IMG/VR virus record: IMGVR_UViG_3300009158_000128
Location: 1 to 33,503 of that record
Direction: 5' to 3' (one strand)
Length of the DNA: 33,503 nucleotides
Source: a virus
Shown: positions 1 to 28,973 of the stretch, in pieces
Layout of the letters: every line of letters begins with the position of its first letter
Position numbering within the stretch: the first letter of the stretch is position 1
Made by a program: the position numbers and the translations under genes
Notes under the pieces: generated by a model
Seen by the model: the letters and a program-made list of their open reading frames with translations, nothing else
What the model was told of the DNA's origin: nothing
The model's database searches: none

Positions 1-3000
1 ATCCGCAATTACTTTTTCAAGTGGTGAATAAAATCCATTAACTACATCTGGCTGAGTTTCTTTAACCTCAACATCTTTTCCATTAATATTTAATGAAGTG
101 ATTTCTTGTCTTGGCTTTTGCATATGAAGACTAGGTTCACCTTTTGATATTGCTTTATATTTTCCTAACTCGCTAGTTAAATCTTTTGAAGAAACATGAT
201 TAAGATCTGTATCGCTTTTAAATTTATATGATGGTTTTGTTGTAGTGGTAACTCCAAATCCTTTTGTTTCTGTTTCCCCAATCTTTGCACTTCTTCCTTC
301 TATAGCTTGATTTTTACCAAATGTTTTAAATGTTTTATTGAAAATATCTACGCCAACAGGTGATTTGTCTATTGTTTTTATAGCAAACGGATATGATGGA
401 TGGTTTAAATCTTTTTCAAAAAATACAGGGCTTGTTATTTTTAATGCTGAATACGCATCTCCTGTTTCTAATCCTTTTAAAAAATCTTCCTGACCTAAAT
501 CCATAAACATCTTGTCGACTCCAGCTCCTGATGCTTTATATTCCCCTTTCTTTAATTTTGTTTTATCAAATACAAATTGCTTTTCTCCATTAGGGTTTAA
601 TATAAATGAATTTTCATTATACCCCATATCAATCAACATTTTTGTTATGATTGGATTTGCATTTTTAATTAATGATGCTCTAAAAGAATCATAAGAAGAA
701 TTTGCTTCAGACATAGTTTGTCCATCTTCCATTCTTCCTCCTTTTAAATAATTATCAAATAATCCAATAACAGAATCAACATTTCTTACATTTCCTATTT
801 TATAAGTTGATTTTATAGCATCGATTAATCCATTATAACCCTCTTTATTTTTAGCATAAGCCAATAAAGTTTTTACAAATCCAACTTTTGCAGATAAAGA
901 TGTTTTATGTTTTAAGTCACTACCTTTCCCAAGAACCACAGCACCAGGCTTAGGGTTTTCAGGCAATGATAAATTAAATATTTCTCCTTTTTTATTTTTT
1001 AATATCCAATCATTTTTCCCTTTACCTTTTTCAACTTCAAACGAACCTTCATTAAAAGATTCTGGTAATTTAATTCCATTATTTATAAATAACGATCTGT
1101 TAAATTGAGTAGAAAAAGAACCAGCAGAATCAGCACTTACTGATGCTCCAGCTTTCCCTGTTTCGCCTCCATTTAATGGATAAAAAACACCTCCATCAAA
1201 ACTTGCTATTTTTTTACCATCATGTAAAATATCTCCTACAAACAAATCATCCCAATGAGTAAGAGCAAATGTTAGATCTTTAAGCGAATCTTTTGGACTT
1301 ATTACTTTTACTCTTCCACTTTCTACAGCTTTTTCACTTTCTTTTGCATCCAATGCTGGTTTTTTAGTTATCCCAGATTCCCCATAATTAGTAATCTGTT
1401 TTTGAATTGCAAAAATAGTATTTTTAGCTTTTTTCTTATTTTCTATTTTAACATCAATAGCCTCACCTTTTTCAAATCCTGTAGATATTTTATCTGCAAG
1501 TGCCTTTAATTCTCCTACAGTCTTTATTTTTCCAGACAAATCAACTCCTACAGCCTTCATCATATTAACAAAGATCTGTTTAATCTTATCGAAGTTACTC
1601 TCTGTAATTTTAACTTTACCGTCTGCAACGTCAGCAATAAATTCTGTTACAGCTTCCATCTTTTGTTGAGCCTCATCATAAGCTGAAGCAAACTCTTTTG
1701 AATAGAAACCTTCTTTACCTGCACGCTTCTCAGCCGAAACAACTTGATTAAATAATCTATCAACAGCTTTCGGATCAACAGCATGTATAGCATTTAATAT
1801 AGGATGAACTCCTTCGTGAAACAAGGTGTTGCTTTGAATTTTCTCAAGGTTCAGATGAATAGTTTTTGTTTCTGAATCGTAAAATCCTCCTGCTACTATG
1901 CTTTCTTGTGCTTTACCACCTGCCTTTTCAGCAGCTTTCGCAAAAGCTTCTGGAGTTTCATGTGTTTCTACTTTTAAATCAGGACTAACATCTTTCAATG
2001 CAGCTACAACGTTATCAACCTGTGCCTTTGTCTTCTCTATTACTTCCTTTTGCCCTGCCTTAGCCTTAAGCTCTTCTAGTTGAGCCTTTTCGTTTTCTTT
2101 TAAAGTACCGTGTGATTCTTTTAGTTTAAGCGTGTTGTACTTACTTTTTTCTGCAGGAGTAATCTTTTCAGCTTTAACTTCTTCAGGTAATTTAGATGCC
2201 CATTCAGGAAGTAATCCTATTTTTTGTTCTGCAAAAGGTTTTTCTTTTGCAGAAACTTTTTTGATATTACCATTCTCATCTCTTAAATGCTCACCAAAGT
2301 TAACCCAAGAGTTTTGTCCGCGAGTCTCAGTAGTCATAGCTCTTCTTGCTAATGGACTAAACATACGAGCGTGAACATCCCATGCATTCTCTTCTCCCTT
2401 TGCTCCAAAAGAATTACCTCTTTCACCGTGACCAAATGCATCATGAACAAAACGGAACACATCGTTTACAAGCAATGGTTTTCCGTTAATGTCTTTCTGC
2501 CCACTATCTTTTAATAATGGATTCTCTGACCTTTGTTTTTCTGTTATCTCTTTACCACCAAATTCTTTTTCTGTTGAAAGAACAAAAAGATGTTTATTAT
2601 CTCTAAGGTCTTTAAGCATTTCAGTAGAATTCTTATATGGCTCTCCTTCCCCTTCATATATTTCAACCTTGTAACCATTGTCAACTAAATGTTTATGTTG
2701 ATCAACACTTTCTTTTGCTAAAGCTTCATAAGAGGCTTTAGTCTCAGGGTCATTAGGGTTATTCTTCATCTCTTGAAAAGCATCGGCACGTTTCTTTGCC
2801 TCCTCTTCACTGATATCGAAAATCTTTTCTCCCTTAGGTGTTTCTATCCCAACGTTCTTTTTGTAACTATCAGCTACATTAGAAATTTCAGGAACAGGTT
2901 CTGAAAATAATTTACCTCCAGCTTTTACTTCTTTAACTTCAATTTGTTTACCTTCTTCGGTAGGCGCAGTCCCTTGCTCGCCTTGTCCCATTCCGACACG

Positions 3001-4389
3001 TTCACCCCCTGTGACTCCAGCTTCGTTTTGTTCGCGTGGAAGAATCCCTGTTGTGCTTTGCTTTTGTACGGCATCTTTTTGTTGTGTTAGTTCGTTAATT
3101 TGTGTGTCTAAAATATCGTGAACGGATTTATATACAACAGGGACATTTTTTTTGTCTTCCTGTAAACGTTCAATCCTTGCCGTTAAATCTTCTGCTGTTA
3201 CTGCATTATCTGCATTTAGTTTTGCTTCAACCAATTGTATATCAGCATCTGTTCTATTTGCCTCAGCAATCTCTTGTTCCTTGAAATCGATTTGTTGATA
3301 AAGCATATCCTTTGCCTCGCCTTCAGGAAGATTCTCGAAAGCACTCTGCATCTCAGCAAGCTCTGTTTGCAGCTTGTCATTATTTGGAGCTGTCTTTTCT
3401 TCTACAGTGTTTATCTTATTAAGAATTTCTTTTGATGCAGGTGTATCAGATTTCTCTGCCTCGTTCTTAATGTCAGTAATGTTTACCTTCTTTAATCCTT
3501 CCTGTAAATTTTCAAATGATTGTTTTTCTTCAGGTGTAGCTTTGTTTTCTGCAACCTTCTGAGAAATATCTTTTAAATCTTTTATTGATTTTATTTGTGA
3601 TTTTATTTCTCCTGCACCGCGCATAGCTCCTGCAACTGCTGCAAAGTCTAATAGCTCTAAAACCATAGCACTATTGCTTCCTTCTTCAGGTTTTATGCCC
3701 ATAGCATTTGTTAGCTTAGATACCATAGTAAATGGAGTATCTAAAACATTCTCTACAGTTTTAGCTGTCTCAGGAGAAAGATTTTTATTTGCTGCTGTTT
3801 TTATTGCATCGATAGCTATGTTGAATTCTACTGCTGCAGGAATTAAATTGAATGCTGTTTGAGTGCCTCCTGTTAATGTCGTTAATGTTCCTTTTACAAT
3901 ATCTTGTTTCTGAACAGGTGTTCCAAAAAGCAAATTAGCTCCCTCTCCCATCTTCTCAACACCGCCCTTTATCGCTTCACCTGTTTTAACAGCAAACTCA
4001 TTAGACCAATCGGCTATAGGTTGTAACGCTCCCCATGTTTGAGACATAGGAGTTTTAATGATAGGTTCTTCGTGTGGTTGATTGTTCTCTACTGCTGCAG
4101 CAAAAGACTCTAATTGATCCTTGTCATACCCTTTATCAACAAGGGTTTTGATGTAATGCTCTTTATATATTGGTGATGGATTAGAAACTAAATCTTTAGC
4201 CATACCTTGCTTTAACAAGTCTGACTTAGCAAGATCGTGCTTAACGATGTTATCCTGTTTTATCTGATTGACATAAGGAACCTTAATCTTCTCCTCTGAA
4301 GTAGAAGGGGCTTCGAATCCCACAGCCTCTGCCATTGATTTTGAAGTACCACCTACCGATTTCGATGGTGAGGTGGGCGGATTTTTTTT
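1..4389 (-). CDS. Giant polyvalent-type phage protein, partial at window edge (C-terminal part missing)
   Basis: One minus-strand frame stays open from the left edge to about 4399, giving over 1,450 codons with neither its start nor its stop inside this frame. From the N-terminal side it shows a low-complexity P/S/T/G segment, an alanine- and glycine-rich amphipathic helical stretch, a long Glu/Lys/Gln-rich likely coiled coil, then a conserved-looking block with HDAFGH (2428-2445), GEENAW and ETRGQNSWVNFG (2293-2328). I recall such blocks from large phage polyvalent proteins. An HEGVH zinc-metallopeptidase-type motif follows at 1804-1818, then a beta-rich region (HWDDLFVGDIL). It is probably delivered with or packaged in the virion, since it ends the internal-protein gene cluster. 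The N-terminus is most likely the short reading frame at 4283-4498, joined by a one-base shift at the A10 run. An independent start at ATG 4335 is the alternative. The gene is real; the domain roles are inferred. Confidence 0.8.
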
Positions 4390-4498
4390 TTGCCACACCG
4401 TTCAAATCGTCAAGTGTGGGTAGTGTTTCAGATGTTGAATCGTTGTTTAATTCGTCTAATGTTGGCAGTTTGTCTTCCATTGTTATTGCATTACCCAT
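4283..4498 (-). CDS. Short N-terminal reading frame of the giant protein, out of frame at an A10 run
   Basis: This 71-codon frame starts at ATG 4498 and overlaps the stop of the preceding gene by 16 nt. A second in-frame ATG at 4480 sits just past that stop and fits translational coupling better. Its first 37 or so residues contain two copies of a short motif, LPTLDELN and LPTLDDLN, then GVAKKK encoded by a run of ten A. After the run this frame soon stops, and the sequence looks non-coding-like (HLTIEIGRWYFKINGRG). The frame one base over reads NPPTSPSKSVGGTSKS and continues for over 1,400 codons. So only residues 1 to about 40 are likely authentic, as the head of the giant protein. Sequencing error, slippage or programmed frameshift are all possible. 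Confidence 0.55.
   Translation of the reverse strand: MGNAITMEDKLPTLDELNNDSTSETLPTLDDLNGVAKKKSAHLTIEIGRWYFKINGRGCGIRSPFYFRGED
4382..4391 (-). other. A10 homopolymer (coding strand) at a frame change
   Basis: Ten T on the plus strand read as ten A on the coding strand, within GGT GTG GCA AAA AAA AAA TCC. With nine A the upstream frame would enter the giant downstream frame directly (GCA AAA AAA AAT CCG). The required change is +1 (equivalently -2). Runs of nine or more A are known sites of transcriptional slippage and also of sequencing miscounts. Confidence 0.7.
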
Positions 4499-5736
4499 TT
4501 AGTACCATTATATACTGCAGTTCCGCCTTGGACAGCTTTAGTATCTCCTTTTTTAGGAGCTTTATTATTTGAATCCTTTGAATTGTATTTCTTTATAGTT
4601 ACATGCTCAGGAGCTTTACCGTTTAATAAATCAGTAGGGTTTTCTATACCGAAAGAATTTATCATAACATCCGCCACTGAATTGTAATCTAAAAGTTTTA
4701 TTCTTTGTACTGGATTTCCATCGTCATCTTTCTCTGTTACAGATCCCTTAAGCATTATCTTTCCGCCTTTTGTTTGAACAATAGCCATAGGTGTAATATC
4801 CATTGTCCCACCTTTAACGTCAGGGTTGTCAACCTTTAGCTTAGGATTCTCTGCTTTGTCAGTAAAGTTAAACGAAGCTGTCTTATCTCCATTAGGTTGC
4901 TCTGTTACTACAGCCGATACTCTTGGACGTTTTGTTGTTTCTCCTTGACCTGTAGCTTGAGGGCCTGCCTTTGTATCACTAACAACTAACTTTGGAGCAT
5001 AGATTTTTTTATAGTATTCTATAGGGTCTTTTGCTCCAAGCTTATCTGCTGCTCTATTAAAATCATATGCAGCCTGCTCAAATAATTGAGCGTCTTTCAA
5101 ATCATCTTCAATTGATTTTTCAGCTTGCGCTAATGTAAAAGTCTTACGATAAGGTGTATCTTGTGCCATCGCTTGAGCGTTTGGAGCTAACACCTTTAAA
5201 ACTCTATCGTTATAATTAATGTTTTGTTTATAAATAGATGGGTCATCATTCCAATTACCAGCATCTGCTGTAGAAGCTCTCTTTAAATGCTCATCCATTA
5301 CACCCTCTCTATAAGATGCAGGGTCTTTAGCAATCATTTGACCATTAGCCTCCCACTTCTCACGATAGTTCTTAGACAACTCTGCATTTGTGTTATAGTC
5401 ACCATAAAGTCTTTGAAACTCTAACGTAGCCCCTATATCTCCATTGCGTAACTTGTCGTGATTTTTATTAACGAAGTCTCTTATGCCTTGAGCTTTCTCA
5501 GCAAACATTTGTTGATCCTTAGGCATAATCTCAATAGAACCCATCTTAGATAGGTTGCTCATCACATCTGCTTCAGTATCTGCCGCTTCTTTTTCTTTCG
5601 CTTGCTTAGCAGCAAAATCCTCCTTCTTCTTTTGAAGAAGATTCTCCTGCGTTTGTTTAGTGTCTATTATTTGAGCTGCGCCTTTTCCAATATCATATAG
5701 ATCTGTACGGGCATCGGCTGTTGAGTTATTGTACAT
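4483..5736 (-). CDS. Putative internal virion or ejected protein, 417 aa
   Basis: I do not recognise a named family. The protein is highly charged and mostly helical. A Lys/Gln/Glu/Ala-rich likely coiled coil occupies residues 25-60 (around ENLLQKKKEDFAAKQAKEKE), helical segments follow to about residue 260, and a beta-rich Lys/Gly/Asp-rich C-terminal half ends GTKWVMQ. There is no signal peptide or membrane segment. It lies one base after the 243-aa Gln/Gly-rich gene and overlaps the next frame by 16 nt, so it belongs to the cluster downstream of the tail hub. In podoviruses that position commonly holds internal or cargo proteins ejected with DNA. The role rests on position and composition only. 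Confidence 0.75.
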   Translation of the reverse strand: MYNNSTADARTDLYDIGKGAAQIIDTKQTQENLLQKKKEDFAAKQAKEKEAADTEADVMSNLSKMGSIEIMPKDQQMFAEKAQGIRDFVNKNHDKLRNGDIGATLEFQRLYGDYNTNAELSKNYREKWEANGQMIAKDPASYREGVMDEHLKRASTADAGNWNDDPSIYKQNINYNDRVLKVLAPNAQAMAQDTPYRKTFTLAQAEKSIEDDLKDAQLFEQAAYDFNRAADKLGAKDPIEYYKKIYAPKLVVSDTKAGPQATGQGETTKRPRVSAVVTEQPNGDKTASFNFTDKAENPKLKVDNPDVKGGTMDITPMAIVQTKGGKIMLKGSVTEKDDDGNPVQRIKLLDYNSVADVMINSFGIENPTDLLNGKAPEHVTIKKYNSKDSNNKAPKKGDTKAVQGGTAVYNGTKWVMQ

Positions 5737-5737
5737 C

Positions 5738-6469
5738 TTATTGAGGATAATAAGGGTTTAAATTAGTCTGCTTAAACATATTAGTTGTGTCAGGAGCATT
5801 CCATTGACCCATATTATTTCCGTACTGATTTCCTGGCTGAACAAACATTCCCTTTGTATTAGGATTGTTATATGTACCAACGTTTGTGTTACCATAAGGA
5901 TTAACTTCACCACCTGTATCTGTTGATTCAGGAGCTTTAGCTTTAGGCTTCATGCCTGCAACTCCTCCGCCTGCCATTTGCAATCCTCCAGAAATATTCT
6001 GCATACCTGCACCAATCATTGCTTGGTTCTGAGCAGTTCTTTCGTAGTAAGGATTTTCCTTGTTAATTCCCCAAGCCTTGTCTTTGTAATCAGCCATGTT
6101 CTGTCTTTGAGCAGATAGAGTCTGTTGATTAGCTTGTCTTGCTGCTGCATCCATACCTAACAGATTACCATATGCCTGATTCTGGCTATCTGCTAACCCT
6201 GCAATACCTGCCAACCCACCTTTACGTGAACCTGCAGAAGCTAACGCTTGAGCAGAACCTCTTTGAAGGTTCGATAAATATTGTTGCTTTTGCTCCTCAG
6301 GAAGACCTTGCAGAGCTTGTTGTTGTGCTTGATTAAGATTTTGCTTTACCTCGTCAGGAATTTGGTATTCAGGACGTTTATTTTTCTTTTGGTCGTAATA
6401 GCCTTTAGCCATTTGAACACCACCCATTACAGCGGTAGCTCCGCCAACTCCAACAGCTATCCAAGTCAT
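5738..6469 (-). CDS. Gln/Gly/Ala-rich putative internal virion (ejection-type) protein, 243 aa
   Basis: The N-terminus is a short Gly/Ala/Val hydrophobic segment (WIAVGVGGATAVMGGVQMAK, residues 3-22). A Lys-rich turn follows, then a helical Gln/Ala-rich region (residues 40-130, around NLNQAQQQALQGLPEEQKQQ). A second Gly/Met-rich hydrophobic stretch (GAGMQNISGGLQMAGGGVAG) lies near residues 152-172, and the tail is disordered and Asn/Gly/Tyr/Pro-rich. This mix of glycine-zipper-like segments and Gln-rich helices is typical of small podoviral internal proteins such as the T7 gp14 class, which insert in the host envelope during DNA entry. The start overlaps the cupin gene's stop by 4 nt (ATGA). 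The assignment is by composition and context. Confidence 0.75.
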   Translation of the reverse strand: MTWIAVGVGGATAVMGGVQMAKGYYDQKKNKRPEYQIPDEVKQNLNQAQQQALQGLPEEQKQQYLSNLQRGSAQALASAGSRKGGLAGIAGLADSQNQAYGNLLGMDAAARQANQQTLSAQRQNMADYKDKAWGINKENPYYERTAQNQAMIGAGMQNISGGLQMAGGGVAGMKPKAKAPESTDTGGEVNPYGNTNVGTYNNPNTKGMFVQPGNQYGNNMGQWNAPDTTNMFKQTNLNPYYPQ

Positions 6470-6984
6470 CGTATTAATTTTTTAAAGAAAGAAATTAAAC
6501 GATTTTCTTTCTTGGTTGTTTTTATAAATCTTTCATAATCCTCGTAGCTATCAGCGATAACTTCTTTTTCTAACAACTCTAAATCTTGAGTGTTAGTTGG
6601 ATTAAGGTGTACTGTTATCCATACTGTGTCAGTGATAGCGTGAACAACTCTTTTAGTTCCTGCTGGAGATATCATAGACATTGGGCCTTGTAATTCTTCC
6701 ATCCCATTCTCCGTTACAACTAACACTTTCCCTGACATTAAAAAGTTTGGGTGATCATGTTTGTGAATCTTTCCAACTAACATAGTGTCAGCAGGAATAA
6801 ATATCTCTCTTACATAAATACCATCCGAAAAAGTATGATTCAATGGACAGTATGATGAGTCTCCTATAAAAGCACCTTCTACCCCTCTTAACTTATCCTC
6901 TACAGACATTATATCTTCTCTTATGTGCTGCTTAGATGCTGTTATTTCATTATCTATTGCTGCCAAAGCTGGGTCTAATGCCAT
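6466..6984 (-). CDS. Phage cupin-fold protein, 172 aa
   Basis: Residues 1-35 are a charged helix. Residues 55-130 have the beta-strand pattern of a small cupin barrel: YVREIFIPADTMLVGKIHKH, then DHPNFLMSGKVLVV, then SPAGTKRVVHAITDTVWITV. Histidines 74, 76 and 78 could bind a metal, but the canonical two-motif cupin signature is only partly present. The C-terminus is acidic then basic (FFKKLIR), with no membrane segment. Similar cupin-like proteins are common near phage tail and structural genes, usually without a proven function. It overlaps the membrane-protein gene by 1 nt upstream and the 243-aa gene by 4 nt downstream, so it is translated as part of a tight cluster. The fold call is fairly good; the function is open. 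Confidence 0.8.
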   Translation of the reverse strand: MALDPALAAIDNEITASKQHIREDIMSVEDKLRGVEGAFIGDSSYCPLNHTFSDGIYVREIFIPADTMLVGKIHKHDHPNFLMSGKVLVVTENGMEELQGPMSMISPAGTKRVVHAITDTVWITVHLNPTNTQDLELLEKEVIADSYEDYERFIKTTKKENRLISFFKKLIR

Positions 6985-14960: not shown

Positions 14961-17015
14961 CTATTTTACCTCCTTACTCTCATTGCCTCTGTTGTCGTAT
15001 TTCTTAAAAAATGTTATCGGTGTAACCTCTCTCTTTATTACAGTATAGGATTTTGATGCAATGATTGCATACATAGCAGATACAGTTAAATCGTAGTCTG
15101 TCCAATCCTCAACATTAAACTTTGCAAGGTCGTTTAACGTATCATCAAACATGCAGTTACCCATCACATTTGTTGTGCTGCTTATCCCGATGTTCTGATA
15201 AACATATGACTGCATATGTTCTATAAGCATACGTCTGACACCGCTTTCAACAGACCCTGTGTTAGGAATCCACTTCTCCTTTTGATTCTTCTCGGAATAT
15301 TCAGAGTGAGTAAATGCAGGTCTATCCATTAGATAATGCTCGTATCCGCGATTACGGAAGTGATTAATACATCCAGGCTTATTGCTCTCACCTAATATTT
15401 CCCATCCATAGAATACACACTGCATCAACATATCCTCATAAAAGATAGCAGGGTCAGATGGTCTCGCCCAATACTGACAAACAAATATGTTAGACATCTC
15501 AGGCTTAACAATGCTTAGCTTACGGAATCCGTGAGACGCAGCCTTAGACTTCTTGTTAGATGTCGTGTACTTATGGTCAATAGGGTCGGTAGAGAACACT
15601 CCTTCGTGTGTGTTAGCAGGAGCTTTCTGTCCGTATTTTATTGTTTGTTTATTCCTATCGTCTCCCTGTGGCATCCAATACACAAGCCACTTACCCATCT
15701 TATCAGGCTCCCAAACAACTTCTGTGTCACGCTTACCATCTCTCCAAACAAAATTTCCTTGAACTAAATGATTGCCCGTTATCCCTGTGTTGTGATCTAG
15801 CTGCTGATAAATCTTGTCTATATCAAAAGATGTTTTCTCATTCGCTGGATCTCTGAACATCTCATCCTCCGTGAATGGTCGCTGACGTATCTCTTCAAAG
15901 TAACCAACAATATCGCCTGACATTTGTTTTGCCTTACGTTCACTTTCATAGTAAGGCTTTGCTCCGATGTTTATCCACTCACCATCAATTCCCATTACAG
16001 GAGTTTCAGGAGTATCTATAACAGACATTCCATACTCATCAATGAACCCCTCAATGCCATCGTATGCAGGGACAAAGTATCTCCACATCCCACTTCCTGT
16101 TCTTCCATTCTCTGTCATCTCTAAAATAGAAGACTTCTGCCATAAGGCATAAAAGTTTGCCCCTCCCTTTTTAGATTCATTGACCGTTGAACCAAAAAGT
16201 ATTTTACCTATAATCCTTCTTCCAAGCGTCACGCATGTCTTTGCAATGTTGTACCACTTCTCTACGTTAACCTCTTCCCACTTACCTGTTTCATCGGCTG
16301 CTAATATCTTAGTCTTGTAACCGTCATAGGAGTTTTCCTTTGTGTTCTTCCAATCGATGGTTGTCCCTAAACTCGTCTCCTTTACAGTGACACGATTTTT
16401 AAATGTAACCTTTTGCTGTGGAGTCTTAAACTCTAAAGATTTCTTTACATCCTCTGCAGACTTAACTACTGGCTTAAAGAATGAAGGGTACGAAAGGAAT
16501 CCGTGAATAAGCTTTTTAAACATCTCCTCGGCATCTCCCCCTGTTTTTGATACAATACCATAGTGAGAACTAAATGTCTTGCGAGCGCGGTTTAAAATGA
16601 TGCTGTCAACCCTAAAAGAATATCCATCCCTTCGAAGCTTACCGTAACACTGTCCTATACACTCTTTATCATTGTCACATAAAAACCAATGGTAAAACCA
16701 CCTTCTATCTCTATCTCTGTAGTCAGGATATCCTGAGTCAATCTTGAACCAATTAAGGTAATGATAGTGGTCTCCTGTTACGTAAGTAGGAATACCATTG
16801 TTAAAGAACCACATTCCTTCTGTACACTTCTTATCCTCCTCAAAGGCAAATGCCCCTTGGTCTTCCTCAGACATCTCATCCCAATTCTCAGGCAATATAG
16901 TACGCATCCACTTCTGACTCTTCTGAGGCAAATGATGCCCCATGATTTGTGTCTTAGGTGGTTGCTTAGGAAGAATAAATATCGACCCTTCGTATAACTC
17001 TACTTGGTTATCCAT
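14961..17015 (-). CDS. terL: Terminase large subunit (DNA-packaging ATPase/nuclease), 684 aa
   Basis: It packages phage DNA through the portal. The N-terminal ATPase has an atypical phosphate-binding region (YGKLRRDGYS, residues 124-133, without GK[ST]) and a clear Walker B (KILAADETGKW, residues 236-246, Asp241/Glu242). Residues about 300-460 contain further ATPase-type segments (GMWRYFVPAYDGIEGFID). The nuclease domain begins near GVFSTDPIDH (Asp477), continues through FYEDMLMQCVFYGWEILGES (residues 525-544) and ends near DWTDYDLTVSAMYAI. The overall pattern and length are like terminases of Bacteroidetes and crAss-like phages. The stop is TAG. It overlaps the 139-aa gene by 8 nt. A read-through terminator upstream of that gene probably keeps its level low. 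Its position after the capsid and chaperonin genes, not before the portal, is noteworthy. Confidence 0.9.
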   Translation of the reverse strand: MDNQVELYEGSIFILPKQPPKTQIMGHHLPQKSQKWMRTILPENWDEMSEEDQGAFAFEEDKKCTEGMWFFNNGIPTYVTGDHYHYLNWFKIDSGYPDYRDRDRRWFYHWFLCDNDKECIGQCYGKLRRDGYSFRVDSIILNRARKTFSSHYGIVSKTGGDAEEMFKKLIHGFLSYPSFFKPVVKSAEDVKKSLEFKTPQQKVTFKNRVTVKETSLGTTIDWKNTKENSYDGYKTKILAADETGKWEEVNVEKWYNIAKTCVTLGRRIIGKILFGSTVNESKKGGANFYALWQKSSILEMTENGRTGSGMWRYFVPAYDGIEGFIDEYGMSVIDTPETPVMGIDGEWINIGAKPYYESERKAKQMSGDIVGYFEEIRQRPFTEDEMFRDPANEKTSFDIDKIYQQLDHNTGITGNHLVQGNFVWRDGKRDTEVVWEPDKMGKWLVYWMPQGDDRNKQTIKYGQKAPANTHEGVFSTDPIDHKYTTSNKKSKAASHGFRKLSIVKPEMSNIFVCQYWARPSDPAIFYEDMLMQCVFYGWEILGESNKPGCINHFRNRGYEHYLMDRPAFTHSEYSEKNQKEKWIPNTGSVESGVRRMLIEHMQSYVYQNIGISSTTNVMGNCMFDDTLNDLAKFNVEDWTDYDLTVSAMYAIIASKSYTVIKREVTPITFFKKYDNRGNESKEVK

Positions 17016-17427
17016 TTGCGTTCTTCAATGCTATCTGTTCAGCAAGTCCAATGTTCTTGTCCTTCAGCAGTTTCTCTGCCTTCTTTGCCTCATCAGGAGT
17101 TAACAGCTTGCGTAATTCATCAAGCTTCTTGCTTAAGTCTACAGACTCTAATAGGTACTTCCATGCACGATCAAACTCTTTCGAATCCTTATCGGCAAAT
17201 AAGTCAATCTTTCCTGGGGTGATATTAACTTCCTCTAACACATCTCCCACAAAAACTTTCACCTTTGTAGGTTCCTTGATAGTAAGCTGTTCGTTGAAGC
17301 TATCGATTTGCCCCTTTATCGTAACGTAGGTGTTGTAATATGGGCTTGATAGTATATTGGAAAGCTGAAGTTCCAAATGCTCGACATAGGCTAAAATAGC
17401 CTTGTCCTTTATTGTAGGTTTTTCCAT
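17008..17427 (-). CDS. Small helical protein before terL; possible small terminase subunit, 139 aa
   Basis: The 139 residues are charged and almost wholly helical. They include KAILAYVEHLELQLSNILSS near the N-terminus, a short beta segment (KVKVFVGDVLEEVNITPGKI) and Lys/Glu/Leu-rich helices after residue 95 (SKKLDELRKLLTPDEAKKAE). No helix-turn-helix typical of small terminases is obvious. It overlaps terL by 8 nt, the usual arrangement for a small terminase subunit, but sequence support is lacking. The ATG lies 22 nt after an intrinsic terminator, so no promoter can fit between and transcription must read through. Confidence 0.65.
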   Translation of the reverse strand: MEKPTIKDKAILAYVEHLELQLSNILSSPYYNTYVTIKGQIDSFNEQLTIKEPTKVKVFVGDVLEEVNITPGKIDLFADKDSKEFDRAWKYLLESVDLSKKLDELRKLLTPDEAKKAEKLLKDKNIGLAEQIALKNANG

Positions 17428-17512: not shown

Positions 17513-18073
17513 TTATAGTGCGTTTATTGCTGTTTGCACAGCACTTGGAGTTTCTTCTGCGATAATGCTGAAGTTCTCTGTCCCTTTTGAATCGTACATA
17601 ATCTCTGATCCAGCAGTGTTGATTGTAACTGCGTTTACCAATAAATTATTTATATATCTTGTTGCTCCTGTAGCAGCTACTGTTACTGAGAATAAGTTAC
17701 CAGAAGCACTTTCAATAGCAGAACCGCCAGTAGATACTACCAATGAATCTGGATATGCTTTTTTAGAATCGTATGTAACAACAGTGTTTGTAGCAAAGTC
17801 ATCAACAAAGATAATTTTATCACCATGGATAAATAGTAATCCTCCTGTAGACTCTAAAGTAACAGCAAAAGTACGAGCAGCAGCAGTATTAATAGTAGCA
17901 GCTGATTGAGTAACAAGTCTAACAATAATGTTATCTCTGTTATCAGTGTATGTAAGCTCAACAACACCATCAGTGTTTGTCATAAAATAAATAATCTGAT
18001 TTGCAGATAATTTAAAAGCTTCGCCAGTTTTATAGTCTGTTAAAGATATAGATTTTGATACTTGAACTGCCAT
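17513..18073 (-). CDS. Beta-rich putative virion (decoration-type) protein, 186 aa
   Basis: A Ser/Thr/Val/Ile-rich protein made of short strands, with two related halves: an N-terminal unit around SANQIIYFMTNTDGVVELTY and a C-terminal unit around FSVTVAATGATRYINNLLVN. It ends SAVQTAINAL, a helix common at the end of small phage head or decoration domains. There is no cysteine, signal peptide or membrane segment. It has its own copy of the phage promoter motif and its own strong terminator, an arrangement expected for an abundant virion protein. Head decoration is my best guess; a fibre or adhesin-type role is possible. The ATG is 26 nt after the -7 element. Confidence 0.75.
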   Translation of the reverse strand: MAVQVSKSISLTDYKTGEAFKLSANQIIYFMTNTDGVVELTYTDNRDNIIVRLVTQSAATINTAAARTFAVTLESTGGLLFIHGDKIIFVDDFATNTVVTYDSKKAYPDSLVVSTGGSAIESASGNLFSVTVAATGATRYINNLLVNAVTINTAGSEIMYDSKGTENFSIIAEETPSAVQTAINAL

Positions 18074-18176: not shown

Positions 18177-19763
18177 TTACATTGTTGGCCCTTTTCTATG
18201 AACCTCAGCAATTAAGCATTCACTCGTTATAAGCATTCCTGCAACACTGCAAGCGTTCTCCAATGCTACTCGGACAACCTTAGCAGGGTCAATAACACCT
18301 GACACAAATAAATCCTCGTGCTTCATTGTCTTAGCATTGTACCCGATAAACTCACCAGACTTAATCTTAGCAAGGATAGTATCATCTACAACACCACAGT
18401 TAACAAGGATTTGTCTCAATGGAGCTTCCATAGACTTAACTATGATGCTTCCACCAATCTTCTCATCATCATTCAAGTATTCAACGTTTTTAGTAGCCTC
18501 GATACATGACAACAAACAAGAACCTCCCCCAGCAACGATACCTTCCTCAATAGCAGACTTAGTCGCTCTGATAGCATCGTCAACACGGTCTTTCTTCTCA
18601 TCCATCTCCACATCAGAAGATGCACCTACAGACATAATCGCTACACCACCTGTTAATCTTGCAAGACGTTTCTTTAAACGTTCTGTATCAAAGTCAATCT
18701 TAGCGTTAGCAATAAGAGCCTTAACCTCTGTTTGTCTCAACTCTAAAGCTCCGTCCTTAGACTTTCCACCAATAAAAGATGTAGTGCTGTCAGATGATAC
18801 AACCTTAGCGCATGATCCTAAGTGAGAAAGTTGTGCGTTCTCAAGCTTTGTTCCAAGCGTGTCAGAGACAACAGTTGCTCCCGTCATAGTTGCGATGTCA
18901 GACAAGAATTCAATTCTGTAAGCAGATGGTGGCTTAATAGCAGAGAACTTAATTCCGCCCTTAACCTTATTCATAATAGCGAAAGATAAAGCTTCTCCCG
19001 ATAAGTCACCACATACAATAACAAAAGGCTTACCTGATGGTAAAGCTTTCTCCAAGACAGGTTGTAATTGTTTCACTGTAGTGATGTCCTCATCTGTAAC
19101 AAGAACAGTAACGTCCTCGTAAGATGCTTCCATTTTCTCAGCATCGGTTACAAAGTACTTAGAGATATAACCTTTGTCAATCTGCATCCCATCAACAACA
19201 CGAATACTTGTCTCTGCTGTGTTAGAACTTTCTACATCAATAATACCATACTCACCAATCTTAGCAAACGCTGAAGCGATAAGCTCTCCGATGAATGGGT
19301 CGTTGTTAGCAGAAATGGTTGCTACATTTTTAATCTTTTCTACATCACCATCAATCTTTTGAGAGATAGTTTTAATGTGTGACACAACTGCATTTACAGC
19401 CTTATCCATACCGCGTTTTACATCGATAGGCTTAGCTCCACTTGCAATCATCTTTAACCCTTCAGAAGCCATAGCTTGTGCAAGAACTGTTGCAGTAGTT
19501 GTTCCGTCACCAGCATCATTAACTGTTTTACGGGCAACACCTTTTATCATCTCAACACCTACATTCTCAATAGCGTCTTCAACTTGTATTGACTCAGCTA
19601 CAGACACACCGTCTTTTGTTACAGATGGGTCAGCTCCGTGATAGTTGCTAATGATTACGTTTCGTCCTGATGGCCCAAGGGTTACCTTTACGGCATCCGC
19701 CACAGTGTCAAAACCTTTCTTTACTCCACTCTTTGCTTCTTCTTTTGATAGAATCTTTTTCAT
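18177..19763 (-). CDS. groEL: Phage-encoded GroEL chaperonin (60-kDa type I), 528 aa
   Basis: A full-length type I chaperonin that should form an ATP-driven folding chamber. The equatorial domain keeps TLGPSGRNV (residues 28-36), TKDGVSVA (49-56, Asp51 as GroEL Asp52), GDGTTTATVLA (85-95, Asp86 as Asp87), RVDDAI (catalytic Asp396 as Asp398) and IVAGGGS. The apical domain keeps GMQIDKGYISKYFV and the hydrophobic pattern of the two GroES/substrate helices (KQLQPVLEKAL and GEALSFAIMNKVKGG). Two features differ. The usual KAPGFGDRR loop reads KPPSAYRIEF (residues 277-286). The flexible Gly-Gly-Met tail is missing, the protein ending EVHRKGPTM. The gene follows groES by 15 nt and ends at a terminator. 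It lies between capsid and terminase genes, so virion proteins are the likely clients. The identity is secure; the client specificity is inferred. Confidence 0.97.
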   Translation of the reverse strand: MKKILSKEEAKSGVKKGFDTVADAVKVTLGPSGRNVIISNYHGADPSVTKDGVSVAESIQVEDAIENVGVEMIKGVARKTVNDAGDGTTTATVLAQAMASEGLKMIASGAKPIDVKRGMDKAVNAVVSHIKTISQKIDGDVEKIKNVATISANNDPFIGELIASAFAKIGEYGIIDVESSNTAETSIRVVDGMQIDKGYISKYFVTDAEKMEASYEDVTVLVTDEDITTVKQLQPVLEKALPSGKPFVIVCGDLSGEALSFAIMNKVKGGIKFSAIKPPSAYRIEFLSDIATMTGATVVSDTLGTKLENAQLSHLGSCAKVVSSDSTTSFIGGKSKDGALELRQTEVKALIANAKIDFDTERLKKRLARLTGGVAIMSVGASSDVEMDEKKDRVDDAIRATKSAIEEGIVAGGGSCLLSCIEATKNVEYLNDDEKIGGSIIVKSMEAPLRQILVNCGVVDDTILAKIKSGEFIGYNAKTMKHEDLFVSGVIDPAKVVRVALENACSVAGMLITSECLIAEVHRKGPTM

Positions 19764-19778: not shown

Positions 19779-20036
19779 TTAATTTATTGCTAAAATATCT
19801 TCTTGTTGCATTATCATATAATCCTTACCATCAATGGTAATATCTGTTCCTCTATACTTTTGATACAATACTGAATCTCCTACCTCTACAAGAGTTGCTT
19901 TCTCTCCCTTTGCTACAATGATTCCCGACAAAGGTTTCTCTTGTGCTGAGTCAGGAAGTATTAATCCTCCAAAGGTTGTTGTCTGAGCCAAGTCCTGCTC
20001 TATTACTACGCGATTTAATAATGGTTTTATTTTCAT
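19779..20036 (-). CDS. groES: Phage-encoded GroES co-chaperonin, 85 aa
   Basis: A compact single-domain co-chaperonin that would cap the GroEL ring. It begins IKPLLNRVVIEQ, as in GroES. The mobile loop lies at about residues 13-35 and carries the hydrophobic contact GGLILP (GGIVLT in E. coli). The core strands GIIVAKGE, VEVGDSVLYQKYRGT and the C-terminal YMIMQQEDILAI are all in place. At 85 residues it is about ten shorter than E. coli GroES, mostly in the roof and loop regions. The ATG overlaps the stop of the three-module GroES-like gene by 4 nt, so the two are translationally coupled and probably made together. Confidence 0.95.
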   Translation of the reverse strand: MKIKPLLNRVVIEQDLAQTTTFGGLILPDSAQEKPLSGIIVAKGEKATLVEVGDSVLYQKYRGTDITIDGKDYMIMQQEDILAIN

Positions 20037-20875
20037 AAGAATTTATAGTTTATATCTTGTTCTGTTAAAAAGGAACACTCTTGCCCCCCGTAATTTAATC
20101 TGCTTGACACACCGTTAAAATAGCTAACCTTATCGCGTATTGCAACACCCTTTATGTTCTCCCCTATATTATACACAATACCTATTCTTTCTCTTTCATT
20201 CTTTCTTTGTATAAGACCTCCGCGAGTTTCGTCTCCTGTAATGTCTATCACAAATAATTTATTGTTAAGACACACCAATCTACTATTACGCTCTACAGCG
20301 ATAATGTTTCTTAGCTGCATCCTGTATAAGTCTGTACCCAACAATTTAATGTCGTAGTCAGCATCGTTCGTGAAGAATACTGTGTCGCCCATTCTAAGAC
20401 CACTCTCCTTAGCTTTCTTTGATAATGCAAACACTTTACCCGTGTTCCTTAGATATGCTCTCTCGGTGCGTAAAATAAGCCCTCCTTCGGTCTTTGTGTG
20501 ACTCTCAGGTTCTAACACTGGCTCAACGAATATATAATCCTCTAATGGTTCCAACTTTGAATTAACAATCTTTGCCCATATGTGATAGTATTCACACTGA
20601 AACAAGGTCTCATCATTATATTTAACTTTATTGTCATCCTGACAAACGAAATGGTGCATCACAACGATGTCTCCCACGTTTACAGGATTGTCATAACTAT
20701 GCTCTGAATCTATGATTTGTGGACTAAGGATGACCTCCCCAATCTGTTCTGCGTGACGGTACTTATCAAAGTCAGTATCTATAACTAACTTCTCCCCGTT
20801 AATTCCTGTGATAGACGACACCCTTTTAGAGTCCACGTCTGCACGGATCAAGAATAAATCTTTGATTAATTTCAC
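20033..20875 (-). CDS. Tandem (three-module) GroES-like co-chaperonin, 280 aa
   Basis: The protein reads as three successive GroES-like units. Module 2 (about residues 106-197) is clearest: LEPLEDYIFVEPV, mobile-loop-like TEGGLILRTERA, NTGKVFAL, RMGDTVFFTNDADYDIKLLG, YRMQLRNIIAV. Module 3 (198-280) has LNNKLFVIDIT, TRGGLIQRKNE, RIGIVYNIGE, IRDKVSYFNG and a final SFLTEQDINYKF. Module 1 (1-105) has MKLIKDLFLIRAD, GEKLVIDTDFDK, QIGEVILSPQ, NVGDIVVMHH and YYHIWAKI, with a diverged loop. Start is GTG (20875). It overlaps groES by 4 nt. Chloroplast Cpn20 shows that fused GroES modules can cap chaperonins. Whether this one caps GroEL alone, mixes with the 85-aa GroES or guides specific clients cannot be told. 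The domain reading is by eye. Confidence 0.8.
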   Translation of the reverse strand: MKLIKDLFLIRADVDSKRVSSITGINGEKLVIDTDFDKYRHAEQIGEVILSPQIIDSEHSYDNPVNVGDIVVMHHFVCQDDNKVKYNDETLFQCEYYHIWAKIVNSKLEPLEDYIFVEPVLEPESHTKTEGGLILRTERAYLRNTGKVFALSKKAKESGLRMGDTVFFTNDADYDIKLLGTDLYRMQLRNIIAVERNSRLVCLNNKLFVIDITGDETRGGLIQRKNERERIGIVYNIGENIKGVAIRDKVSYFNGVSSRLNYGGQECSFLTEQDINYKFL

Positions 20876-20908: not shown

Positions 20909-21184
20909 TTATCTTACAATAACAACTGACTGACTTAAGTCATACTCTATCGTTACAGGAACTCCATCCAAACCTTTCCACAATATCTTCTCTCCTTCTC
21001 CGTTAATCTGAACGTATATTAAAAATCTTACTTTGCCAAAGATATGAAATTGATTGATATCCTCAACAATATCTGTGATTAAATTTTTACCTATTCTATT
21101 CCCTACAACAAAGGCTAATCCCTCGTCCTTAGGATTGTGCCCAACGACAAGCTTTCTGATTATTCCTGCAGGTGTAGTTTCCAT
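20909..21184 (-). CDS. Unknown small protein in the chaperonin operon, 91 aa
   Basis: I do not recognise it. The chain is mixed alpha/beta with strands IIRKLVVGHNP, FHIFGKVRFLIYVQ and VPVTIEYDLSQSVVIVR, and no membrane segment or cysteine. It begins with METTPAG 16 nt after the 128-aa gene and ends 33 nt before the GTG of the three-module GroES-like gene. Constant operon position next to co-chaperonins makes a virion client or folding-related role conceivable, but nothing in the sequence shows it. Confidence 0.7.
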   Translation of the reverse strand: METTPAGIIRKLVVGHNPKDEGLAFVVGNRIGKNLITDIVEDINQFHIFGKVRFLIYVQINGEGEKILWKGLDGVPVTIEYDLSQSVVIVR

Positions 21185-23678: not shown

Positions 23679-25103
23679 CTATGCAGGAGTAACCCAAACA
23701 AAACGTCCTGGTGCGAATCCTTCGAATCCGAAGTGACTTCTCCAGTTGATTTGTAAGCTATCTTCGCTATTAGTGTAAACACCGTTAGCACCACCTGTTG
23801 GCCATTCTTCCCAATCGCGTGAGTATGTTCCGCCAGCTTTAGACTGAGACACATAATTCATACGAATAGATGGCACTGTTTCTTTTTTATCATCAGGCCC
23901 AAATGAATGAACTGATTTATCCATTGGAATAACTACTGCTGATTGAACGTAAGTTTGACCTGCAGCACCTAACATATTTTTGTAGTTGAATACATCATAT
24001 GTTTTCAAGTGATAAGTGTAACCTTGAACTAAGAAAGAATCAAAAGAGAAATTCACGAATTGATCTTTTCCGCCTGAGAAAGCACCGTATTGAACACCGC
24101 CATTTTTCATTTCGATAGAAACGAAGTTATCGATACCTACGCGCAATTGAATACCTGAATAAACAGCGTTTTCTTTAGCACCACGATATTTATCGATTTG
24201 GTCAGTAGTCATTGTTTGCCAATCAGCTTTAGTAATACCTGTTACAGCATTGTAAGTAGTTGTGTTACCGTAGTTTTGAACGAAAGGAATCATACCTTCA
24301 GTCTTAGTCAACGTTGGTTGAGCAGTAGCAAGAGTTGTGTTTGTCACTTTTTTACCAGTGATTAACGCTACCTCACGTAAGTTACGAGAAGCTCTGTATG
24401 CATCATGTTGACCTTTGTAGTAATACAAGTAACCCATTTGTCCGTTAAGACCTTCTACTTCAACCCAGATTTCTTCACCTAAAGAAGTACCTGTTGACTT
24501 GTTACTTTCTTTCAAGATTTGCATGTTGTTAACGTAACGGTTAACTCTACGTGCTTGAGAAAGTGGTTGGTCAGTACCCTCTTGATGAGCGTTACCTGTG
24601 ATGATGATAGTGTCAGTTGTTAATACTGCAGGAATTGCTTCTCCTAAAACAACAGGAGTTACATCAAATGTAGAACCTGAAATTGCTGTTACTTGAGCCT
24701 CAACACCGTTAGGAAATTTAACAGTATCTTGTAAACGAACAGGATTTGTTGTGCCACCCATTGGTGCTGTACCTACTACTAAGTAAGGAGATACTGCAGA
24801 TGAAGGCCAAGTGTAAGTGTAGCCTGTAGAAACAGTTAACGTAACTGTTGCATTAGCTGCTCCAGCATCTTCTGCATCACACTTAAGAACTTCATGCAAC
24901 CAATCTTCTTCAGAGTGCATGTACTCAATCCCTGAAATTGGATTCCATCCGCCAAGCTCATTCATTAAGCCTGTCATGTTTTGGTCTCCTAATGCCTTGT
25001 ACAATTTAGAATCGTACTGAGGTTTTAATAAATTGTACAATTGTGCTGAACCTACCCAGTTGTGGGAAGTTACTGCTTGTACCATACTTGGAACGCTTGC
25101 CAT
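23679..25103 (-). CDS. Major capsid protein candidate, 474 aa
   Basis: The placement directly after the scaffold-like gene, length and composition point to the HK97-fold major capsid protein. The N-terminal arm (residues 1-70) is helical and amphipathic (SAQLYNLLKPQYDSKLYKAL). Residues about 85-185 form a Thr/Val/Gly/Pro-rich beta region (VTLTVSTGYTYTWPSSAVSP) that looks like an inserted surface domain. A long helix-like segment follows (ARRVNRYVNNMQILKESNK, then GEEIWVEVEGLNGQMGYLYY). The C-terminal half ends in a beta-rich domain (INWRSHFGFEGFAPGRFVWV). No sequence motif proves it, but a perfect terminator directly after it and an upstream phage promoter fit the most abundant virion protein. 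It is a likely client of the phage GroEL. The stop is TAG. Confidence 0.8.
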   Translation of the reverse strand: MASVPSMVQAVTSHNWVGSAQLYNLLKPQYDSKLYKALGDQNMTGLMNELGGWNPISGIEYMHSEEDWLHEVLKCDAEDAGAANATVTLTVSTGYTYTWPSSAVSPYLVVGTAPMGGTTNPVRLQDTVKFPNGVEAQVTAISGSTFDVTPVVLGEAIPAVLTTDTIIITGNAHQEGTDQPLSQARRVNRYVNNMQILKESNKSTGTSLGEEIWVEVEGLNGQMGYLYYYKGQHDAYRASRNLREVALITGKKVTNTTLATAQPTLTKTEGMIPFVQNYGNTTTYNAVTGITKADWQTMTTDQIDKYRGAKENAVYSGIQLRVGIDNFVSIEMKNGGVQYGAFSGGKDQFVNFSFDSFLVQGYTYHLKTYDVFNYKNMLGAAGQTYVQSAVVIPMDKSVHSFGPDDKKETVPSIRMNYVSQSKAGGTYSRDWEEWPTGGANGVYTNSEDSLQINWRSHFGFEGFAPGRFVWVTPA

Positions 25104-26363: not shown

Positions 26364-28973
26364 TTATTTTTTTGTTGATTTAGCAGTTGCTTTTGCTGCT
26401 AATTTTGCTTTCTCTAATTCGTGTTCGTGACCTATACCTTGCTTAATTTCTTCCGATAAATTAATAAGATGTCTGTCTGCAACCTTGCCTTCGTTAGCAA
26501 CGTGCTGAGCAGCAACCTTCCCTTGGTTAGCAGCTTCTTGAACATCTTTTTTACCACCAGTATTAATGTAGGCAACAGTATCTGCGCCTTGGTTTTTAAG
26601 TGATTGAAGTTGCATCTGCAGGCTATATTCAAACTCAATCTTCTTCATATCAATCTCAGCTTGAGCGTTGATGACAGCAATTTTGTTTGCTGTTATTGCC
26701 TGGTCTAATTGAGCCTGAGCTTGTGAAGCAGCTTGAGCTGATTGCATTTGAACAGCTCCATTATTCTGAATGTCGTTAGCCTTAGCTTGTTCTGCATTCT
26801 TGCGATTCTTATCTTCCAACAGAACCATCAATTGCGCTGCAGCCTTTACATCTTCCTTCAACACCATTCTTATTCTTACAACATCCGAAGGCATTAATAC
26901 ACCTTGCTGTATACCTAGATTGATAAGACCTTCTAATTGAGATTTCTCTTCATCATCAGGAAGCATTTCTATATCAATAGCAAATTGATTGAAAGCAATC
27001 TTTTTACCGTATGTTAATGTTTCAGTTGAATAAGCTCCAATAGCATTTGTGAAAGCTTCATTATCATAAACGATACAATCCTGTATCATTAATGCCAATC
27101 GTTTAGCTTGACGTACAATAAGGTTATTAGCGAACTGAGTCAATGGACGTAATGCATTATTAGATGCTTGTATCGCCATCTTTTGTGTTCCAACTAAAGC
27201 TTCTGTGTCAGGAGAGCTTGCATCTACTGCAGAGTTGTATCCAATAACATCGTTCATCTTTTGAAGCTCATTGTTATAAGCTGCGAACAATACATTGAAG
27301 TCTCTTCCAATACCATTATCTAATGGCTCTATTACTCGTCCATTAATTACGTTACCATTTTTATCGCGAGACCTGTAAGTGTAAGAACCTGTTTGTTCAT
27401 ACATTTTAGTAATCTCAATACCGTCCATCTTAGAGTTATTAGGATTACCCATACCTCCAACGATAGCGTCCATACCCTCAAGGTCAATAGCAACCCCTGG
27501 AGGTTTTGCCTTGATAAGTAATTGTTGTGTCTTTAAGTTGATAAGGTTGATTTGATCTTCGTGAGGAATCATTCTCTCCACCAAAGATTTATTCTCCATA
27601 TCATAAATACCTGGAGCAATTATCACAATAGGTAACTCAGCCTTTGGGCTATAGCTTCCTGCAATGTTATCGCGCTCGATATTCTCGGACATCTTGTAAT
27701 TGAAAAGGTATGATGTCCCAGGGATCCATTTACCTTCATATCTGTATTGACATTGCTTAGTGATTGTCTCAACTGAAGCATTTCTTTTGTCTGTCTTTAA
27801 CTTAGCAAAATATTTCTTTGCATCATCGATTGTCTTAGCAACTGCCTTACCTACTTCTAATGCTTCACCCTTAACTCCCCACTTAGAACCATTGTCGATA
27901 ATCACTATCGCATCAGCAGAAACTTCGCCTGTGTAGTTAGATGATTTTTTATCGAAGAAGAATCCGCCTTTAGGATTAATCTTTTTTGTTCTTACCTCTT
28001 TGTTGATAGTAAGAAAGAAGAACTCCATCACCGTGATGTTGAAGTTATAATAAGGACGAGATGCCGTTAGACCAGTGTTGTTATAATATCCCTCATAACT
28101 CAAGCTCCAACTCCAAAGGGGGTTGTTGTTCTTCCCCGCTTGTGTTTTAGCAATCTCGAATAGCTGTTCGTCCGTGAAGTCAGGATTCATTTGAGCAAGC
28201 TCATAAATCTGATATTGTTTCAACACCCCTTGATAGGAGATGTTTCGGAAGTCTTCATACTTAGAATAAGGGGTAATCAAATCTACAGGATCAACATATT
28301 CATAACGAATGTTTTTATCCTCATCATAATAACGGTAAGTAGCTGCTCTTTTAATAACAACTAAGTCACGTAATATCTTTCTTCTTGTTTCCTCAGCATC
28401 GTTATTGTCAAAGACAAACTTAAGTGCCTTCTCCATTGAAATCGATGCTGCTGGTTTATATTTTAGTTTCAAATCAAGCTCTGCTTCATCCGAAGACTCA
28501 GGAATTTTTCTTCCTTTGTTTACTAATGGTATACCTGTCTTAGCCTCAGACTCCGCAGAAAAATCCTTAAGGAACATATCCGCGTATAGGTTATTACGAT
28601 AGTCATCGTATTGAGTCTTTGATTCAGGGTCGATAGGATTACATTGAATCTTATAGTTCTGATTCATCATTCTACCAACGATGTTATCTACAATTGTAGC
28701 AATACGATTAACAGGAGAAAAATCTAAGTTAAGATACGATGTATCTCCGTTTAAATCTAATCGGTCTTTATACTTTTGAATTGACTCAAGACCCTCCGCA
28801 TATTTACGGTTCATAATATCTCGTTGTCTACGAGTATTAAAAAGGGTACTGTTCTTTGTGTATTCTGACCATATCGCTCTCGCGTATCTTAATCCATATG
28901 CATCTTTCGCCTTCTCTTCGCTTGATTCTAAAAATGATGGGAATGATGATATATTTTTTCCTTGGTCTGCCAT
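26364..28973 (-). CDS. Portal protein, 869 aa
   Basis: The portal forms the ring through which DNA enters and leaves. The N-terminal part has the familiar opening of large podoviral portals: a helix with ARAIWSEYTKNSTLFNTRRQ (residues 29-48), KYAEGLESIQKYKDRL, then the conserved-looking LNLDFSPVNRIATIVDNIVG. A wing region includes RYEYVDPVDLITPYSKYEDF (residues about 225-244) and NISYQGVLKQYQI. The stem/clip region lies near MIPHEDQINLINLKTQQLLI. Residues after about 720 are a Gln/Ala/Lys-rich coiled coil (ASQAQAQLDQAITANKIAVI), a barrel-like tail typical of crAss- and P22-type portals. It is the first gene of the minus-strand virion block, 17 nt after the phage promoter motif. Size and block order fit a crAss-like portal. 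Confidence 0.88.
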   Translation of the reverse strand: MADQGKNISSFPSFLESSEEKAKDAYGLRYARAIWSEYTKNSTLFNTRRQRDIMNRKYAEGLESIQKYKDRLDLNGDTSYLNLDFSPVNRIATIVDNIVGRMMNQNYKIQCNPIDPESKTQYDDYRNNLYADMFLKDFSAESEAKTGIPLVNKGRKIPESSDEAELDLKLKYKPAASISMEKALKFVFDNNDAEETRRKILRDLVVIKRAATYRYYDEDKNIRYEYVDPVDLITPYSKYEDFRNISYQGVLKQYQIYELAQMNPDFTDEQLFEIAKTQAGKNNNPLWSWSLSYEGYYNNTGLTASRPYYNFNITVMEFFFLTINKEVRTKKINPKGGFFFDKKSSNYTGEVSADAIVIIDNGSKWGVKGEALEVGKAVAKTIDDAKKYFAKLKTDKRNASVETITKQCQYRYEGKWIPGTSYLFNYKMSENIERDNIAGSYSPKAELPIVIIAPGIYDMENKSLVERMIPHEDQINLINLKTQQLLIKAKPPGVAIDLEGMDAIVGGMGNPNNSKMDGIEITKMYEQTGSYTYRSRDKNGNVINGRVIEPLDNGIGRDFNVLFAAYNNELQKMNDVIGYNSAVDASSPDTEALVGTQKMAIQASNNALRPLTQFANNLIVRQAKRLALMIQDCIVYDNEAFTNAIGAYSTETLTYGKKIAFNQFAIDIEMLPDDEEKSQLEGLINLGIQQGVLMPSDVVRIRMVLKEDVKAAAQLMVLLEDKNRKNAEQAKANDIQNNGAVQMQSAQAASQAQAQLDQAITANKIAVINAQAEIDMKKIEFEYSLQMQLQSLKNQGADTVAYINTGGKKDVQEAANQGKVAAQHVANEGKVADRHLINLSEEIKQGIGHEHELEKAKLAAKATAKSTKK

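Follow-up and report, generated by a model that had tools for sequence, protein, structure and literature searches.

How does a chain with the wrong number of GroES modules fit the seven-fold GroEL? Tandem GroES is known from Cpn20 and phage GroES from gp31; to our knowledge, the natural tandem cases are two-module plastid proteins. The question raised by tandem GroES chains returns with a gene of the virus record IMGVR_UViG_3300009158_000128 (33.5 kb, analyzed as a whole and called the window here), whose 280-aa (amino acid) product almost certainly holds, as judged from its structure model, three GroES barrels in one chain. A first-pass annotation made from the letters alone had divided this protein into three GroES-like modules at approximately residues 1-105, 106-197, and 198-280, and the division was borne out by structure prediction and by fold and profile comparison. 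A check of the open reading frames (ORFs) showed that its coordinates, strand, and length had been given correctly, as had the 4-nt overlap that the triple gene shares with an ordinary groES. The two genes and the parts of the triple protein are the following:

20033..20875, minus strand: triple-GroES protein, 280 aa, GTG start (ORF; full-length homologues)
20564..20875, minus strand: module 1, residues 1-104 (structure alignment; profile of the two-module family)
20744..20839, minus strand: module 1 loop, residues 13-44, probably flexible (low model confidence; aligned loops)
20651..20656, minus strand: His74-His75 of module 1, after GDxVxx (invariant alignment columns)
20288..20563, minus strand: module 2, residues 105-196 (Pfam Cpn10; structure alignment)
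20441..20512, minus strand: mobile-loop position of module 2, residues 122-145, ...TEGGLILRTE... (sequence)
20036..20287, minus strand: module 3, residues 197-280, triple clade only (structure alignment; profile score)
20192..20242, minus strand: mobile-loop position of module 3, residues 212-228, ...ETRGGLIQRKN... (sequence)
19779..20036, minus strand: ordinary single GroES, 85 aa (Pfam Cpn10, 85.3 bits)

The GTG start is supported by the homologue in contig L007 (74% identical), which has ATG at the same residue.

AlphaFold2 predicted three barrels, rather than one or none (mean predicted local distance difference test score, pLDDT, 87.2; predicted template modeling score, pTM, 0.83), and each barrel was aligned by VIA-align to solved GroES/Cpn10 chains. 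Residues 1-105 aligned to 4pko_O (Z 9.5, root-mean-square deviation [rmsd] 3.8, 89 aligned residues), residues 107-196 to 1wnr_G (Z 9.0, rmsd 2.0, 77 aligned), and residues 196-280 to both 1p3h_A (Z 10.1, rmsd 3.4, 77 aligned) and 1hx5_A (Z 9.8, rmsd 1.9, 72 aligned). The lowest confidence (pLDDT 61-65) fell in blocks 11-40, which correspond to the module 1 loop. The input was a 97-row family alignment; because only six of its sequences carry module 3, the alignment behind that part of the model is shallow. Zinc-dependent dehydrogenases, which have a "GroES-like" domain, were rejected as the closest kin: such chains reached Z values of 7.4 at most, below those of the Cpn10 chains.

In a structure-free comparison, the profile of the phages' single GroES proteins was aligned to each module with hhalign, and 60 column-shuffles served as the control. 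Scores were 61.8 for module 2 (shuffle maximum 18.8) and 62.0 for module 3 (shuffle maximum 14.3), whereas module 1 scored 37.6 in the two-module relatives (hereafter doubles; shuffle maximum 15.8) and 19.8 in the triples (shuffle maximum 18.8). A chance or low-complexity origin of the GroES likeness was ruled out by the column shuffles. The whole triple scored 57.4 bits against Pfam Cpn10 (PF00166; cut-off 21.1), and it matched PHROG 13932 (E 2.3e-13, residues 23-195) and PHROG 3188, both labelled "co-chaperonin GroES". Scored singly, module 2 passed the Pfam cut-off (38.6), whereas module 3 (15.2) and module 1 (12.8) fell below it. The triple is like bacterial GroES/Cpn10 in the barrel of each module (Z 9-10) and in the Pfam score of module 2, but it differs in its three fused copies, in the scores of modules 1 and 3 alone, and in a mobile-loop motif that is not conserved. 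Module 3 is safe as a GroES barrel because sequence profile and model both back it; module 1 of the triple is weak by sequence and therefore rests on the model and on the doubles, whose module 1 is clearly orthologous to it.

Relatives were reached through gene neighborhood, from scans for the terminase large subunit (TerL) and the portal protein, followed by an iterative profile search over the loci so found. Neither a scan of viral contigs in which the triple protein was the sole query nor a DNA-level search of phage records gave a match. A pattern scan of bacterial and archaeal genomes, a method that reaches fairly close relatives only, found no triple and thus gave no evidence for a captured host gene. 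The profile search yielded 101 family members, six of them triples (including that of the window) and the remainder (approximately 95) doubles. The triple is not a sole case: five further contigs carry full-length triples of 272-288 aa with 37-74% identity to the window protein (74% in L007/G001; 37-41% in L009/G003, L065, L054/G008, and L008/G002). An unnamed viral protein of 304 aa, BFVD A0A516L046, is probably another triple, as its model matched over 312 alignment columns (TM-scores TMq 0.71 and TMt 0.66, 20% identity).

All 97 aligned family members matched PHROG 13932 (200 aa; Cellulophaga phi38:1 gp089, Calle_1, elemo gp30), which belongs to the same family and has the same place upstream of TerL. 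Unlike the triple, however, this profile spans modules 1 and 2 only, with no third module, and its gene lies outside the groES-groEL cassette. The phage double stands in databases under the plain name "cpn10/GroES". A multi-GroES gene was present upstream of TerL in 60 of the 61 loci that show TerL with at least 3.5 kb of upstream sequence, and in 15 of 15 among the loci reached by portal only.

In a 100-row TerL tree, those five triples that have a TerL formed one side of a branch with a support of 100 in the Shimodaira-Hasegawa-like approximate likelihood ratio test (SH-aLRT; short search, some long branches). The two-module version is widespread upstream of the terminase and the triples fall in one TerL clade; on the evidence of trees and gene order, therefore, the triple arose by extension of a widespread phage double, with the third barrel added C-terminally in one clade. 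The best module tree grouped module 3 with single GroES proteins (support 97/88), and this position suggests the fusion of a groES. Approximately unbiased (AU) tests rejected neither a duplication of module 2 as the source of module 3 (P = 0.125) nor a grouping of module 3 with the single GroES that the triple clade itself encodes (P = 0.302). Identity to the L007 protein was 65% in module 3 vs. 84% in module 2. The ratio of nonsynonymous to synonymous substitution rates (dN/dS) was 0.16, 0.18, and 0.28 for modules 1, 2, and 3 in the pair L009-L065, the only usable pair because synonymous sites were saturated in most others. By these sequence comparisons, module 3 is the fastest-evolving module.

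The surroundings of the gene bear on its function. The other genes of the window considered here are as follows:

20909..21184, minus strand: 91-aa protein directly upstream of the triple gene (homologues at the same place in relatives)
18177..19763, minus strand: phage GroEL, 528 aa (Pfam Cpn60_TCP1, 224.5 bits; PHROG 5725, E 2.6e-138)
17513-18073 and 17008-17427, minus strand: two ORFs of 186 and 139 aa between groEL and TerL
14961..17015, minus strand: TerL, downstream of the cassette (PHROG 6681, E 4e-121)
23679..25103, minus strand: probable major capsid protein (Pfam SU10_MCP, 29.5 bits, cut-off 24.1; PHROG 13704)
26364..28973, minus strand: portal protein (PHROG 6547, E 1.2e-81)

Matches of the portal, TerL, and capsid proteins place the virus near Flavobacterium elemo and Cellulophaga podovirus-like phages, and its host is a Bacteroidetes-type bacterium. 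Gene order in the window is 91-aa gene, triple, groES, groEL, two ORFs, and TerL. The same order, namely small gene, triple, none or one ORF, groES, further ORFs, and groEL, was found in all six triples, and TerL followed groEL, past two conserved ORFs or more, in the five triple loci where it is visible. Most doubles lie 0.2-0.5 kb before TerL; where groES-groEL was seen in such loci, it is located elsewhere. Directly upstream of the multi-GroES gene, 79 of 100 loci carry a homologue of the 91-aa protein (75-91 aa); by this recurrent position, the small protein is likely a functional partner of the multi-GroES protein. The window's copy matched nothing in Pfam or PHROG. Its homologues share the motif IRKI...G...VGQ.

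Among solved structures, the Cpn20 chain 7ekq_R was the best match of both models: the double aligned over residues 1-193 (Z 10.8, rmsd 3.7, 167 residues), and the triple aligned less closely (Z 10.2, rmsd 4.6, 171 residues). The alignment of the double's model to 7ekq_R as one unit suggests that linked modules are neighbors in a GroES-type ring. Like chloroplast and apicoplast Cpn20, the phage proteins carry head-to-tail GroES barrels in one chain alongside a single-domain Cpn10. They differ from it in origin, which is plastid or apicoplast for Cpn20, in sequence (14-17% identity in alignments), and in loop motifs that are not common across the phage family; the triple is not filed as Cpn20 because it has three barrels and Cpn20 exactly two GroES domains. 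T4 gp31 (1g31) is likewise a phage-encoded co-chaperonin with the GroES fold, and module 3 aligned to 1g31_A (Z 8.0), but gp31 and other phage single GroES proteins have one domain, form homo-heptamers, and have host GroEL as partner. Algal Cpn20 or Cpn23 forms functional hetero-oligomers with Cpn10 that have seven GroES-like domains, and concatemers of six to eight GroES-like domains function with GroEL (PMC5780408). With approximately four or more of the seven loops competent, GroEL can be bound (PMC4242682).

We tentatively favor, with a probability of roughly 0.45, a reading by analogy with these systems in which the triple is part of a mixed GroEL lid together with the co-encoded single GroES. 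One triple chain would fill three neighboring wedges of a GroES-like ring, and two triples plus one single GroES, translated from overlapping genes, would give seven modules. This count, which is arithmetic, is a candidate answer to the seven-fold symmetry puzzle raised by the first-pass annotation. The mixed ring would cap phage or host GroEL through whichever loops stay competent, and the capped chaperonin may assist the folding of late phage proteins in the way that gp31 serves the capsid protein of T4. As for its origin, trees and gene order show that a two-barrel protein kept upstream of TerL in a podovirus-like group gained a third barrel in the clade where it stands beside groES and groEL. 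The mixed lid is favored because of the three barrels, the Cpn20-like arrangement, the position of all six triples upstream of groES and then groEL, and the Cpn20/Cpn10 precedent. It is also favored because single groES accompanies groEL in all seven double contigs listed with groEL. Whole-record searches found groEL in phi38:1, Calle_1, elemoF, ctfjg026, G017, G019, G020, and G024, and the first seven named are the double contigs that also have single groES.

Several observations weigh against a lid. The single GroES of the window carries the loop TTFGGLILPDS, which modules 2 (TEGGLILRTE) and 3 (TRGGLIQRKN) resemble, and a GG-[IL]-[VI]-L type segment is found in all three. The motifs TEGGLILR and TRGGLIQR are thus present as first annotated, but they are not kept by the family: the segment decays among relatives and is poorly conserved in modules 2 and 3 even within the triples. 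The nearest relative, L007, has TESGLLLR (module 2) and VRSGLYYQ (module 3); across the relatives, SGLLL, CGLIK, and HGMFA occur or the motif is lost, as it is in more distant ones. The module 2 loop is shortened to 18 aa or less in 34 of 91 doubles; among the parts of the doubles that were measured, none varied more than this loop (mean column entropy 2.71 bits vs. approximately 1.6 for strands). The loop of module 1 is longer and has a semi-conserved G-x-x-L-[YI]-[LIV] segment in the doubles. Module 1 had been called diverged, which holds relative to GroES, yet it is the most conserved portion of the phage family, and His74-His75, directly after its GDxVxx strand, is HH in 97 of 97 members. 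This invariant pair, without a named GroES counterpart, suggests another constraint. Metal binding, an interface, and substrate contact are candidate roles for it. In addition, whole-record searches of four contigs of 57-68 kb with a double (G014, G015, G016, and G018; the records may be incomplete) found neither groEL nor single groES. Doubles without detectable groEL would imply that the ancestral job needs no phage GroEL, in which case host GroEL would have to serve; they agree with the report that, of 78 complete environmental genomes in the phi38:1 group, 36 encode a GroEL homologue (Nishimura et al., PMC5332604).

These observations bear on the main rival, which we consider unlikely although it deserves the most weight among the alternatives: the double and triple would be head-assembly or packaging factors with a GroES fold that no longer act mainly as a GroEL lid. 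The phage GroEL and single GroES would then form an ordinary chaperonin, and the multi-GroES protein, perhaps together with its 75-91 aa neighbor, would have the portal, the terminase, or the capsid as its target. The near-constant place upstream of TerL, the homologous small-gene neighbor in 79 of 100 loci, the doubles without detectable phage groEL, the invariant His-His, and the shortened module 2 loops all speak for such a factor. So does the listing of cpn10 among eight core proteins of the Pervagoviridae, the others being structural or hypothetical, and among the three used for phylogeny (Bartlau et al., PMC8776804), although the passage does not specify to which of the two cpn10 genes of the phage it refers. 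Against it stand the retained GroES fold and Cpn20-like domain arrangement and the joining of the gene to the groES-groEL cassette in the six triples; moreover, no virion detection of a multi-GroES protein was found in the literature searched. In a more far-reaching reading, which we regard as quite unlikely, the tandem GroES would be a distinct, near-universal assembly factor for capsid, portal, or packaging, marked by the invariant His-His and independent of phage GroEL, and the triple would be a branch that recombined with the groES-groEL cassette into a 3+3+1 lid.

Less credit still is given to two further explanations. Triple homo-oligomers of six or nine modules might cap GroEL asymmetrically, with one GroEL subunit uncapped or surplus modules excluded, and the single GroES would be a separate general lid; this is improbable, as it does not account for a gene that, in the triple clade, overlaps a single groES and is co-linear with it, and the faster evolution of module 3 than of module 2 also counts against it. 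A tethered triple with few competent loops might instead bind host GroEL or GroES as a decoy or regulator that redirects or inhibits the host chaperonin. The partly degenerate loops would suit such a decoy, as would a GroES-fold protein without phage groEL, for which host GroEL is the only partner left, but an assembly role agrees better with how very consistently the lineage keeps the gene and with its site among packaging and structural genes, and we hold this explanation to be highly improbable.

A literature search on tandem GroES gave plastid papers, with no phage case among the 15 of 35 matches listed. Neither the third module nor its confinement to a single clade nor its place in the groES-groEL cassette was found in the literature searched, which leaves most subscription journals outside. 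These phages offer a natural series of one, two, and three modules per chain, with a single GroES beside the triple, and 3+3+1 or 2+2+2+1 rings are therefore directly testable in a small bacterial system. Moreover, a gene that nearly all members of a large environmental phage group carry, and that is labelled just "cpn10", encodes a protein of two domains and is retained even where no phage groEL is detectable.

For the phage chaperonin itself, a methylated form of GroEL (gp054) of Cellulophaga phi38:1 was detected both in infected cells and in free virions (PMC13288928), and the phage chaperonin is thus expressed and co-purifies with particles. The 186-aa and 139-aa ORFs of the groEL-TerL interval are kept in the triple clade and scarce in double loci (7 and 10 members in all). 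In contrast to the remainder of the window, positions 1-4483 are nearly free of ORFs of at least 80 aa, the exception being a single one of 80 aa (2132-2374). In the triple contig L065, extra ORFs of 323, 79, and 251 aa lie between groES and groEL (4793-6691); their opening residues resemble those of a transposase and a DNA methylase, which would make them an insertion in the cassette.
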